A stretch of 64,000 bases of DNA from Bacteroidota bacterium (lineage in GTDB: Bacteria; Bacteroidota; Ignavibacteria; UBA10030). The stretch covers positions 1 to 64,000 of the forward strand of contig JALONQ010000010.1 of the NCBI GenBank assembly GCA_025454835.1, given 5' to 3'. Shown here piece by piece: positions 5,720 to 31,925 of this stretch. The translations under genes were made by a program, and so were the position numbers. A model generated the notes under the pieces. It had not been told where the DNA came from. It was given only the letters and a program-made list of their open reading frames with translations, and ran no database searches. The stretch's first letter is position 1; every line of letters starts with the position of its first letter.

Positions 5720-8617
5720 CTATTTCATCACGATCGCCTTCCGGAGACGGACCGTCGGGCCGCATTGCAGCCGGACGAGATAGACGCCGCTTGCCAGGTT
5801 GGTTGCCACAAACGGCACAGAGTGAAACCCAGCGCGCTGAACGTCGTCCATCAGCGTCGCAACAGTTCGCCCGAGGAGGTCGTGGATCGTGATCGTCACG
5901 CGCGACTCCACCGGGATCCCGAAATCGATCATGGAAACCGGATTGAAAGGATTCGGGTAGTTCTGCCGAAGCTCGACCTCGGCGGGTACGTTGTCGTCCT
6001 TCTCAGAAACCGCGGCGGGAGTCATATCGTCCCGGCCTGGAGAACCTCCGATGGACAGCGATGCCCTCCACTGCGCCGGGTCCTGCTGGACTCCGGAGGG
6101 GTCCACCTCCACAGGCACAAGCGATGAGCCGTCCGTATCAGGCGCCACCGGCCAAGGGGAGGCGTCGTCATACTGGAGGGAGATGATCGTATCGCCCGTG
6201 GCCGTCTTGAGCGTGAACCGCTCGCCGCTGTTGTCCAGCTGGCCTTCATATTCACCGTACGGGGTGAACCCGTACCGTGTCTTGAAGGCCGAGGCATTGG
6301 ACGCCAGCACGATGAACGCACCCGGCTCGACCGACGCTCCCGACGGAAAGGTGTAGGTGATCCCGTCCGTGAATGTCGCCTGCGACAGATTCACCGGCAG
6401 GGTTCCGATGTTCTTGATCTCCAGAAATTCGTACTCGTTGCCGCTGACGATCCCCTCGGCCAGCGGATGGTAGTGGATCTCGGTGACCTTCAGATCGCGG
6501 ACGTTGTCGTTCGAATACAGGACAAGCTCATGCAGCGCGCTCCAGGTCGTCCCGTCGAGAACACGAGCCTTCACCACCACGGTCTTCGACGTACTCAGCT
6601 CCACCAGGCTGTCGCCGGCGATCGCCGACGGACCGATCGAGCCGCCGAACGCCCGCGGGTCGCGATTGTCCAGCGAGTAGTAGATCGTCCCGGGCATGCC
6701 CTGTTCCCGCCGGAGCGTGAGGGGGAACGGCCCGTTGATGCGAATGCTCGCCCCGACGACCGTGTCCTGACCGCTCATGAACAGCGGCGGCTGGATCGTC
6801 GGGTATAACGAGGCCGACCGCAGCTGGCTCAGGACGATGATCGACCGGAAGGGAAAATAGTTCTGAACGATATCGTCGACCGCACGCCTCCACGTATTGT
6901 CTCTGGTCGCCGGAGGGTCGAGGTACGTGTTGCCCCATCGTGCGGATTCGCCGATGACGGCCGTATCGATCTCCCGTGCGCGCGACAGGAACATGGCCGT
7001 GGCCCGCTGGGGCGTCAGCGGACCGCCGTTGTAGAAGTGGCGGTACGCACGGTCGGCAAACCGCATCCGATATTCGGCGTGCGACGAAAGCCGGTGATGC
7101 AGCCATTGCGGATGGAACGACGAGAAGTCATTGACGACCATGAGGTCGGGGCCGCTCATCGTTCCGATGTTGACCCGGTTCTCCGCCAGACCGATGCCGG
7201 GGCCTTCACCCTCCGTCGTGCGCAACGTATGCTCGGCGTCATGGACGAAGAACTTGAAGCCGCTCGCCCCTTTTCGATTGAAGACCGCGTAGAAGTTGTT
7301 CACGCTCTTGTTGTTACCGAATTTCGACGTCGGGCTGTCAAAATTGCCCGAGTAGAAGATGTTGATCATATAGTCGATGAGGTTGTCCACGTCGAGCAGA
7401 ACGCGAAGCCACACGTCGCGCGAGCCGTCGGGCGCAAGACCCTGCACCTGCCGGTATCTCGTGTCCGTGAAACCGGCGACGCAGGCATTCCAGAGTTCCC
7501 GGTACGCGTCGAGGTTGCCGTCAGTCGCCTCGATCGTGTAGCTGTCGCTGTTCTTGACCACGTCGTAGTCCATGTCACTGCCGCCGAAATACGTCTCGCC
7601 ATACTTCGCCTCAGGTCGTTCCTGCGTCTGGTAGAGTCCCCAGTACACGCCGTTGAGGTAGAGATGGTACGCGCGGCTGCGAGTGTACGGCTGTCCCATC
7701 GCCCCCTGCACGTCGCGGCAGAACACGTCGCTGATCATGGTGTTGTACGATCCCAGGTGGCCGGGATAGCTCCAGGAGTAGTTCTGCGCCGTGCGGAGGT
7801 CCACCTTGTCGAATTCCGTCGCCCCCTCCGTTCCGAACAGCGGATAATTCAGCTTGGTGCTCCCGTACTCGCCCCGGAAGAAGAACCGAAAGGCGTGTTT
7901 CGGGTTGTCGCCGTGGCGGCTCCACCCGCCACGAATGCGGATGCCGCAATTGATCGCGAACCCCTGTCCGCCGTCGGGTCGTAGAAGCTCGACGGAGGCC
8001 GGTCGCTCCCATTCTCTTCCGTCCATCATCGCATGGACATAAATGCCGCTGTCGGCGCCAAAGAGATGCTTTGGGTCGGTCGCGATCGACAACGTCGGGA
8101 CGTCGAGCAGAGCTGCGGTGATCGACCCGGCGTATCGCGGGTCGTTCAGGATGACCGGACTCATGCCATAGTCCATGGCCTGGCTCAGAAAACCGTTCGA
8201 CGGCCACTGGGGTCCGGGCACGACTCCTTCGGGAGAGAGTACGCCGGCCATTCCGGCGAAGACGTAGGTGTGCGTGACCGGTTCGCTGACGGTCAGTCCG
8301 GGCACAACGCTGCAAGCACGGAGAACCACCGCGGGCGATAATGCACGGCCGCCCACGGAGCTTGTCGGATCGATCGTCACGACAGCCGGCGAGATCTGCT
8401 CCAAGGCCGACGTCGAACTCCTCGGCTCCGACCCGTCAAAGGTGTAGCGAATGCTTGATCCGGCGGCCCCAGCGGAGATCGATACGACGAGACTTGCCGA
8501 TTGGAAGCTTCGCCCGACGGTGAACTGTGGGATCGGAGCAGACGACTGTGCGATCGAGCAAAGGGGAATCCAGCTGGTCGCAAGGAGCGCGATCGTGATC
8601 CGATGGAGGGGGTGCAT
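5720..8617 (-). CDS. Secreted CotH-type kinase-like protein with chitobiase-like, lamin-tail and type IX sorting domains
   Basis: 965 aa with signal peptide (ALLATSWIPLCSIAQ). Order of domains: chitobiase/hexosaminidase C-terminal-like domain (about 30-110, YTFDGSEPRSS); CotH domain (about 185-540, with YHLYLNGVYWGLYQTQERP and FFVHDAEHTL); a second chitobiase-like segment (YYSLDNRDPRAF, about 665); a lamin-tail domain (about 720-800, VTEIHYHPL...EFLEIKNIG); and a C-terminal sorting domain starting NYPNPFNP and ending SGVYLVRL. CotH proteins in spores are protein kinases; in FCB bacteria similar proteins are secreted and of unknown substrate. The sorting domain implies export by a type IX-like system to the cell surface. 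No secretion genes are visible in the window. The gene stands alone, followed by the M14 pair about 200 bases downstream. Confidence 0.85.
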   Translation of the reverse strand: MHPLHRITIALLATSWIPLCSIAQSSAPIPQFTVGRSFQSASLVVSISAGAAGSSIRYTFDGSEPRSSTSALEQISPAVVTIDPTSSVGGRALSPAVVLRACSVVPGLTVSEPVTHTYVFAGMAGVLSPEGVVPGPQWPSNGFLSQAMDYGMSPVILNDPRYAGSITAALLDVPTLSIATDPKHLFGADSGIYVHAMMDGREWERPASVELLRPDGGQGFAINCGIRIRGGWSRHGDNPKHAFRFFFRGEYGSTKLNYPLFGTEGATEFDKVDLRTAQNYSWSYPGHLGSYNTMISDVFCRDVQGAMGQPYTRSRAYHLYLNGVYWGLYQTQERPEAKYGETYFGGSDMDYDVVKNSDSYTIEATDGNLDAYRELWNACVAGFTDTRYRQVQGLAPDGSRDVWLRVLLDVDNLIDYMINIFYSGNFDSPTSKFGNNKSVNNFYAVFNRKGASGFKFFVHDAEHTLRTTEGEGPGIGLAENRVNIGTMSGPDLMVVNDFSSFHPQWLHHRLSSHAEYRMRFADRAYRHFYNGGPLTPQRATAMFLSRAREIDTAVIGESARWGNTYLDPPATRDNTWRRAVDDIVQNYFPFRSIIVLSQLRSASLYPTIQPPLFMSGQDTVVGASIRINGPFPLTLRREQGMPGTIYYSLDNRDPRAFGGSIGPSAIAGDSLVELSTSKTVVVKARVLDGTTWSALHELVLYSNDNVRDLKVTEIHYHPLAEGIVSGNEYEFLEIKNIGTLPVNLSQATFTDGITYTFPSGASVEPGAFIVLASNASAFKTRYGFTPYGEYEGQLDNSGERFTLKTATGDTIISLQYDDASPWPVAPDTDGSSLVPVEVDPSGVQQDPAQWRASLSIGGSPGRDDMTPAAVSEKDDNVPAEVELRQNYPNPFNPVSMIDFGIPVESRVTITIHDLLGRTVATLMDDVQRAGFHSVPFVATNLASGVYLVRLQCGPTVRLRKAIVMK

Positions 8618-30665: not shown

Positions 30666-30947
30666 TCAATCACGTGATTTCGCCAGCTCCCGAAGCCGGT
30701 TCAGGTCGCCCGACACAAGAGCCTCCTTCTTCGAACGGGACCATCGTTTCACTTGGAGTTCTCGAATCCTCGCCAGTCGATACGTCGGGTACTCCTCTTC
30801 ATAGACGACCGACTCAGGTGGGTCTATTCGCGTCGTCCGGCCCCCGCGGCCTTTGAAGTGTTCACGGTAACGCCTGACTTTGTTGCGCGTGGAGCCGGGG
30901 TACAGATTACGCGACGTGAGCCGCAAGATGTAGAACCAGGCGGGCAT
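30666..30947 (-). CDS. Small GIY-YIG domain endonuclease (UPF0213-like)
   Basis: 93 aa from ATG 30947 with a GGGGGA ribosome binding site. Single GIY-YIG domain: FYILRL and LYPGST for the two core strands, the catalytic Arg in RRYREHFKGRGG, Glu in VVYEEEYPTY, and VKRWSRSKKEALVSGD at the end. Length and layout match the stand-alone UPF0213/YhbQ-type proteins. Two copies of its 3' half follow in tandem, and another decayed copy is at 9 kb. Confidence 0.85.
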   Translation of the reverse strand: MPAWFYILRLTSRNLYPGSTRNKVRRYREHFKGRGGRTTRIDPPESVVYEEEYPTYRLARIRELQVKRWSRSKKEALVSGDLNRLRELAKSRD

Positions 30948-30964
30948 CGATCCCCCCTCAAAGC

Positions 30965-30999
30965 AAAAAAACCCCCACCGGATGGATCCGCGTGGGGGA
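30965..30999 (-). terminator. Rho-independent terminator downstream of tRNA-Asn
   Basis: On the minus strand a stem CCCCCAC/GTGGGGG with inner CGG/CCG pairs is followed by six T residues. It lies between the tRNA and the GIY-YIG gene and should end the tRNA transcript. Confidence 0.85.
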
Positions 31000-31144
31000 T
31001 TCACAGTTGACATTGGCCCCTCGACGCGCCGCTCGACGCCTCGACCACTCGACTCAGGCCTTCGGCCTTCGCTCGTGGCTCGGCGCTCGCGGCTTGCTCG
31101 GGGCCCTGCTCGCCTCGTCCCGTTGCGGCGGGAGCCCCGAGCGA

Positions 31145-31199: not shown

Positions 31200-31662
31200 C
31201 TCCGCGGGTAGGACTCGAACCTACAACCCTCCGGTTACAGTGACTCCCGTACTTTCATACGGGCCTGGACTATCTCTTCACCCTGCACAGGTCTATTGTA
31301 GCACGTCGGACAAGCAACAGGGGTCGGGCGCTATTGAGGCTTATTGGCGAGATTTCCTCATCCTCTAGTCTCTGCACGTTCTCTGTTACGTACTTCTCTC
31401 TTCACAGAGCTTCGCTCAGGATTACCTTATCTCTTTCAGGAGACGTAGGCTTCCCTGAATTCACCCGATGTTTCAATCCCGATTACTCGGGAAAGCTGCG
31501 ATTGTGGACCAGCGCCCCTTCATCATTCGCATTTCAATCACCCCTCGACTCGCCACGCGCCTCGTTGAAACTTGGATCGTGGCTCGCTCGGGGTGACCGT
31601 TACGCTTGGTCAGGACGCGGGACCGGTCACAGCCGGATGCTCCACCATTGAGCTACCGCGGA
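31200..31662 (-). tRNA. tRNA-Asn(GUU) interrupted by a group I intron
   Basis: The 5' exon is 31662-31629 and the 3' exon 31237-31200. Joined, they form a complete cloverleaf: acceptor TCCGCGG pairing perfectly with CCGCGGA, D-stem GCTC/GAGC, anticodon stem TCCGG/CCGGA with loop CTGTTAA (anticodon GTT), 5-base variable loop, T-stem GTAGG/CCTAC with TTCGAGT loop, and G as discriminator base, as expected for Asn. CCA is not encoded. The intron breaks the anticodon between its second and third bases (U35|U36). A terminator lies downstream at 30965-30999. Confidence 0.93.
31238..31628 (-). ncRNA. Group I intron in tRNA-Asn (391 nt, group IC3-like)
   Basis: The 5' exon ends in U and the intron ends in G, as group I splicing requires. 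Core elements are present in order on the minus strand: P-type GAATTCAGGGAAGCC (31462-31445), Q-type GGTAATCCTGAGC (31426-31409), R-type GTGCAGAGACTAGAGG (31377-31362) and S-type GAAGAGATAGTCCAGG (31279-31264). CAGG/CCTG (P4) and GACTA/TAGTC (P7) can pair. A CCCGTA/TACGGG hairpin near the end fits P9. The P and Q wording matches that of cyanobacterial and plastid tRNA-Leu introns. No homing endonuclease frame is visible. I could not assign P1 with confidence. Confidence 0.9.
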
Positions 31663-31925
31663 ATTTTCACCTTCCTGCGAAAGCCCCGAGCAAGTGCCGA
31701 GAGATTTGTCCTGAGCGTAGCGAAGGAAGTCGAGGCACGCGTCGAGGGGCTACCGCGGAATGTGACGTATTCGAAAGAACAACCCACCTCGGCCTCCACG
31801 TTCGGATACTTACCGTCACAGAGGGGAGAGATGGGCTCGCTTATGCTAGCGAGAGGATTATTTAATATACCGAACGATTGCCTGCAAGGCAAGAGCGCCG
31901 AACGTGCTTGCCGCGGGTTCCTGGC

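Follow-up and report, generated by a model that had tools for sequence, protein, structure and literature searches.

Does the tRNA-Asn(GUU) gene of this genome, which is cut in two within its anticodon loop, still give rise to a mature tRNA, and by which means? We analysed the whole 64,000-nucleotide stretch of DNA (hereafter the window), where the two halves of the gene lie on the minus strand with exactly 391 nt between them (Table 1). The initial annotation had read these halves as a perfect tRNA-Asn interrupted by a group I intron.

Anatomy of the split gene and of its intron

The joined exons were recognized by ARAGORN as a clean tRNA-Asn(gtt), with the insertion in the anticodon loop at site 35/36, which agrees with the initial reading of the two halves. 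The same program finds no tRNA in the unspliced window; as had been anticipated, a plain tRNA scan misses this gene. The order at the junction is exon ...C32 U33 G34 U35, intron G...G, exon U36 A37 A38. The insert begins after U35 and its final G precedes U36. This placement is unique, since a shift in either direction alters the anticodon loop, and it bears out the proposed insertion between U35 and U36 with a U before the insert and a G at its end. A pattern made of the S element and the tRNA-Asn 3' half was matched once in the window and never in 100 shuffles.

The assignment to group I was confirmed with Infernal: the Rfam model RF00028 matches the insert over its full length (1-253) at positions 31520-31246 (84.7 bits, E=3.9e-20, cut-off 50). 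This is the sole match in the 3.2-Mb genome. We then aligned 22 cores (the window's, 11 from its order, and others that include Nitrospirota and Rokubacteria) and scored them against a structure that had been drawn for the window's copy. In this alignment 94.1% of the cells are paired. Double changes affect 29 pairs, against 19.3 in shuffles, and 174 cells, against 58.3 in shuffles. When the 3' partners are moved by 1-3 columns, pairing falls to 33-48%. P4, P6 and P7 vary little or not at all across the 22 cores, and P3 covaries. Together with the RF00028 match, these patterns uphold the P, Q, R and S elements, with P4 and P7, that had been recognized from the letters. Invariance of the catalytic pairs of P3/P4/P7 would imply continued selection.

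Table 1. Features of the split tRNA-Asn gene and its intron, in window positions and in 5' to 3' order of the gene.
Feature	Positions	Strand	Remarks
tRNA-Asn 5' exon	31629-31662	-	positions 1-35, end ...CUGU (C32 U33 G34 U35); ARAGORN on joined exons
Group I intron	31238-31628	-	391 nt; first base G, omega-G at 31238
P1 loop insertion	31500-31628	-	129 nt, folds into one long hairpin that lengthens P1; in relatives the loop contains an HNH ORF or measures just 4-17 nt
Palindromic core of the P1-loop hairpin (GGUCACCCCGAGCGAG...CGAGUCGAGGGGUGAUU)	31536-31598	-	sequence and fold
Internal guide sequence GCAGCU	31494-31499	-	pairs with exon GGCUGU; G31499 opposite U35 as U.G
P2 hairpin	31477-31492	-	5/6 pairs covary
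P3, 5' strand	31462-31468	-	100% paired, 2/7 pairs covary
P4, 5' strand (P element)	31454-31459	-	RF00028 match and covariation alignment
P5/P5a hairpin	31424-31450	-	covariation alignment
P4, 3' strand (Q element)	31415-31420	-	RF00028 match and covariation alignment
P6/P6a hairpin	31377-31414	-	P6a: 6/6 pairs covary
P7, 5' strand (R element GACUA)	31366-31370	-	invariant
Extra stem-loop between P7 and P3 (P7.1-like)	31336-31365	-	outer stem 100% paired, 3/4 pairs covary
P3, 3' strand	31324-31330	-	covariation alignment
P8	31281-31322	-	RF00028 match and covariation alignment
P7, 3' strand (S element UAGUC), guanosine-binding helix	31268-31272	-	invariant
P9 hairpin	31246-31263	-	4/6 pairs covary
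tRNA-Asn 3' exon	31200-31237	-	from U36; CCA not encoded; ARAGORN on joined exons

The core has one stem that is missing from the Rfam consensus. This P7.1-like element occurs in the window's clade but not in the compact members of the family in Omnitrophota and Patescibacteria; we take it to be reminiscent of P7.1/P7.2 of group IA introns, while the wording of the core is, we presume, like that of subgroup IC3. No P10 pairing with the 3' exon was evident by eye across the intron family.

We consider it very likely, judging from the sequence, that the insert is an active group I ribozyme interrupting the tRNA-Asn(GUU) anticodon between U35 and U36. Three points count against it: P10 is not evident, the 129-nt insertion in L1 could slow folding, and an intact tRNA-Asn may sit in a gap of the assembly, from which tRNA-Glu and tRNA-His are missing too.

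Presence and absence within the order

We read the state of the gene from the match table in 61 genomes, i.e. the window's and 60 others of its order. An intact tRNA-Asn is found in 42 of them, a complete split gene without intact copy in 12 (the window's and 11 further genomes), and neither in 7. One of the 42, G047, has a broken split copy besides its intact gene, which accords with the ribozyme reading. Intact copies are thus present in 0/12 genomes with the split gene and in 42/49 of the others (Fisher p = 2.9e-8, to be read with the relatedness of the genomes in mind, as they are not 61 independent events). The window's assembly (G000) has no intact tRNA-Asn. On its own this proves little, because tRNA-Glu and tRNA-His are missing too: the assembly, rated 100% complete, lacks both of these and tRNA-Arg(ACG), and all three are found in its sibling G001. 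Hence, the argument that the split gene is the sole tRNA-Asn, as the initial annotation had suggested, relies on the 12 split-gene genomes, none of which has an intact copy. The split gene is likely the only tRNA-Asn of the genome; this part of the initial reading gains support from the comparison and is left unproven by the assembly itself.

A sibling species of the same genus has a syntenic empty site, with the break exactly at 35/36 (L181, 1538/1539) and the same neighbours. In addition, the relative G002 has an intact tRNA-Asn gene that is 100% identical to the joined exons. So the intron would have been gained or lost recently and cleanly.

These comparisons bear on the other explanations of the locus. 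If the gene were a decaying pseudogene, its intron would no longer splice and the cell would take its tRNA-Asn from an intact copy lost by the assembly. The missing Glu and His tRNAs fit this scenario, as do the intact gene of the sibling species and the genome G047, which keeps a broken intron copy (L059, with the 5' half and the HNH region but without the 3' exon) beside an intact tRNA-Asn. Yet all exon positions of the split tRNA-Asn and all conserved core pairs are intact, the exons match the G002 gene letter for letter, and an intact copy is missing from every one of the 12 genomes with a complete split gene. Decay is therefore quite unlikely. A chimeric assembly or a contamination might be suspected in a draft of 47 contigs, but the locus is internal to a contig of 109 kb and its neighbours are those that surround the empty site in the sibling, the split recurs in 11 further genomes of the order, and in the tree the intron clusters with others from its order (98/99 support). 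Synteny and tree refute this explanation, to which we give practically no weight.

Removal by a protein endonuclease and a ligase, in the style of archaeal tRNA introns, would be compatible with the position of the insert in the anticodon loop. We reject it as extremely improbable because a complete ribozyme core is present, with the P3-P7 pseudoknot, the U.G splice pair and the terminal G common to all 72 listed introns of the family. Archaeal introns, moreover, are short, usually lie at 37/38 and require a bulge-helix-bulge motif (PMC4033280). Self-splicing by the group I ribozyme is the reading that we retain.

The surroundings of the gene have features of their own. Directly downstream of the tRNA-Asn, at 30666-31013 (minus strand), the window encodes a small GIY-YIG nuclease-like protein (Pfam E 9.4e-12); a similar stretch lies near the tRNA-Asn in relatives, intron-bearing and intron-free alike. 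The tRNA's first bases (31653-31664; CTACCGCGGAAT on the plus strand) recur at 31750-31761, about 97 bases upstream of the gene. This duplicated tRNA start brackets a palindromic stretch, and the sibling genome (L181) is similarly arranged. Elsewhere in the order, group I introns are apparently inserted in 23S rRNA genes (L057, L058, L060, L062, L063, L064, L065), some with long ORFs.

Distribution of the family and its endonuclease

Scanning the GTDB species collection (~85,000 genomes) with the S element and the tRNA-Asn 3' half returned at least 114 stretches. With the relatives added, we count at least 72 tRNA-Asn introns at the GU^U site, in at least 13 phyla. Their hosts, named as in the record titles and mostly metagenome bins, are Omnitrophota, Nitrospirota, Patescibacteria groups, Rokubacteria, Acidobacteriota/Aminicenantes, Elusimicrobia, Planctomycetes, Clostridia, Chloroflexi, Armatimonadetes, Bipolaricaulota, WOR-3, Desulfobacteraceae and the window's order. 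The rarity of the Asn(GUU) site implied by the initial annotation is therefore contradicted. The terminal G is found in 72/72 listed introns and a GCAG guide opposite CUGU in 70/72. In the sample of the window's phylum, the pattern occurs in 2/395 genomes, both of its own family, with a strict pattern that misses some introns. We left out the scan loci with a spacing of 44-50 bases, most of which are other tRNAs (Arg(UCU), fMet), and also L126 (spacing 38), an intact tRNA-Asn after a chance motif. One record titled Lokiarchaeota (L173) has a split tRNA-Asn 3' half identical to that of a Clostridia record (L115), probably a binning error.

Introns of the family differ most in the loop between splice site and guide, which measures 4-17 nt, 218-384 nt or an intermediate 26-129 nt in the 69 introns with clear boundaries. 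The long class encodes one family of HNH proteins in which CxxC, HH and CxNCH are invariant. An HNH gene is present in the P1 loop of about 20 of the 72 listed introns, and in the relatives examined this ORF extends across the guide and P2. Proteins from two relatives exceed the Pfam HNH cut-off of 21.4 (21.7 and 23.3); four others that were scanned fall below it. The protein family is shared by introns of Nitrospira, Omnitrophota, Patescibacteria, WOR-3 and the window's order. In the window intron, neither the ORF list nor the comparison with the family revealed an HNH or other endonuclease ORF, the gene that would mark it as a mobile intron. Its copy is therefore probably immobile now. Its P1 loop, with the exon and the guide, is predicted to fold into a single long hairpin (-68.3 kcal/mol, z -5.2). 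The idea that the palindrome of this loop is a genome-wide repeat was not supported: the consensus pattern matched once, elsewhere, and similar short palindromes merely flank the gene.

In the tree, the window intron falls within the clade of its order, beside two relatives sharing its exon type. HNH-bearing and HNH-free copies are intermingled, as expected if the endonuclease was lost repeatedly. The site is also occupied on a viral contig of 469,617 bases with many tRNAs (L346, IMGVR_UViG_3300028840_006907). Its tRNA-Asn, at 1904-2172, has a GU^U intron of 197 nt with the guide GCAGCU, and the halves join cleanly. As phages also frequently encode relatives of the HNH protein, they are a possible carrier of the intron. 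Another viral contig (L347, ~8440-8519) has an apparent tRNA Lys(UUU) in which a group I intron occupies 35/36 (CUUU^UAA); its guide, GAAG, is matched to this site.

Splicing, known introns and dependence

The anatomy of the locus suggests how the tRNA would be restored, and we infer the chemistry from that established for group I introns. In the folded pre-tRNA, the exon end GGCUGU and the guide GCAGCU would form P1, with U35 opposite G. An external guanosine bound in P7 would attack after U35. The freed U35 would then attack after the terminal G, ligating the exons into a mature tRNA-Asn with GUU restored. The guide would thus read CUGU of the anticodon loop, and UAA would come from the 3' exon. 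Where HNH is present, it would be expected to cut intronless tRNA-Asn genes, leading to homing, the presumed route of spread of a site-specific and partly mobile family over many phyla. A cell whose single gene is occupied would require splicing, and for this reason the intron would be conserved after the loss of the endonuclease.

The closest parallel is the cyanobacterial tRNA-Leu(UAA) intron, also a group I intron in the anticodon loop of an essential tRNA, with a terminal G and a compact core; we assume its P, Q and R wording to be very similar, as the initial annotation had noted for P and Q. Here, in contrast, the host is tRNA-Asn, the site is 35/36, the guide GCAG faces CUGU, the window's clade has the P7.1-like stem and the family often has an HNH ORF in P1. 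With tRNA-Asn(GUU) as its host, the window intron lies outside the tRNA-Leu(UAA) family; the genome's own tRNA-Leu(taa) is uninterrupted (ARAGORN). Proteobacterial introns of tRNA-Arg (CCU, UCU) and tRNA-Ile(CAU), including the Azoarcus ribozyme, are the same kind of element and equally invisible to tRNA scanners, but their host tRNAs and sites differ. In the collection scan, Arg(UCU) introns had the same S-element motif as the tRNA-Asn introns. Those of Gammaproteobacteria and Exiguobacterium (L075, L085, L097, L102, L123, L150, L155) encode a different protein of ~140 aa, presumably resembling I-SspI-type nucleases. The tRNA-fMet intron of Synechocystis with I-SspI is again of group I, mobile and directed at the anticodon region of a tRNA, but it differs in tRNA, site and endonuclease, which is HNH in the tRNA-Asn family.

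Reported tRNA hosts of group I introns are fMet and Ile2 (PMC8450103), Leu and fMet in Cyanobacteria, with Arg, Gly and Lys claimed too (PMC5733544), and Arg-TCT and Leu-TAA in Thiomargarita (PMC4853749). In CPR genomes, tRNAs with group I introns were noted and not named (PMC8172020). None of these four papers names Asn as a host. Nor did we find it in a 2014 review of bacterial introns, when phage introns were known in protein genes only (PMC3984707), and our literature searches found no report of tRNA-Asn group I introns among the papers covered. Hence, the host tRNA and the site appear to be new here, the kind of element being already known. Priority is uncertain because a 2025 preprint by Nakagawa et al., cited in PMC12641178 for a novel insertion site in tRNA genes of Patescibacteria, may describe the same tRNA-Asn site in that group. 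The title of the preprint is limited to Patescibacteria, whereas the site is occupied here in many phyla, Patescibacteria included.

More broadly, and with doubt slightly outweighing confidence, we suggest that tRNA-Asn(GUU) 35/36 may be a major, uncatalogued, phylum-crossing homing site of bacteria. Equipped with an HNH endonuclease of its own and present on large phages too, a ribozyme family would repeatedly invade this single essential gene and be kept after losing mobility through dependence on splicing. With presence and absence in one genus, copies with and without HNH and a viral copy, a single essential gene allows tests of how the intron is gained, is lost and becomes indispensable. 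There is also a practical consequence: tRNAs are counted when the quality of a genome is assessed, and this intron alone may make some uncultured genomes appear to be without tRNA-Asn. In these bacteria the mature anticodon GUU would itself be put together by splicing, and an error of splicing would therefore change the decoding of all asparagine codons.
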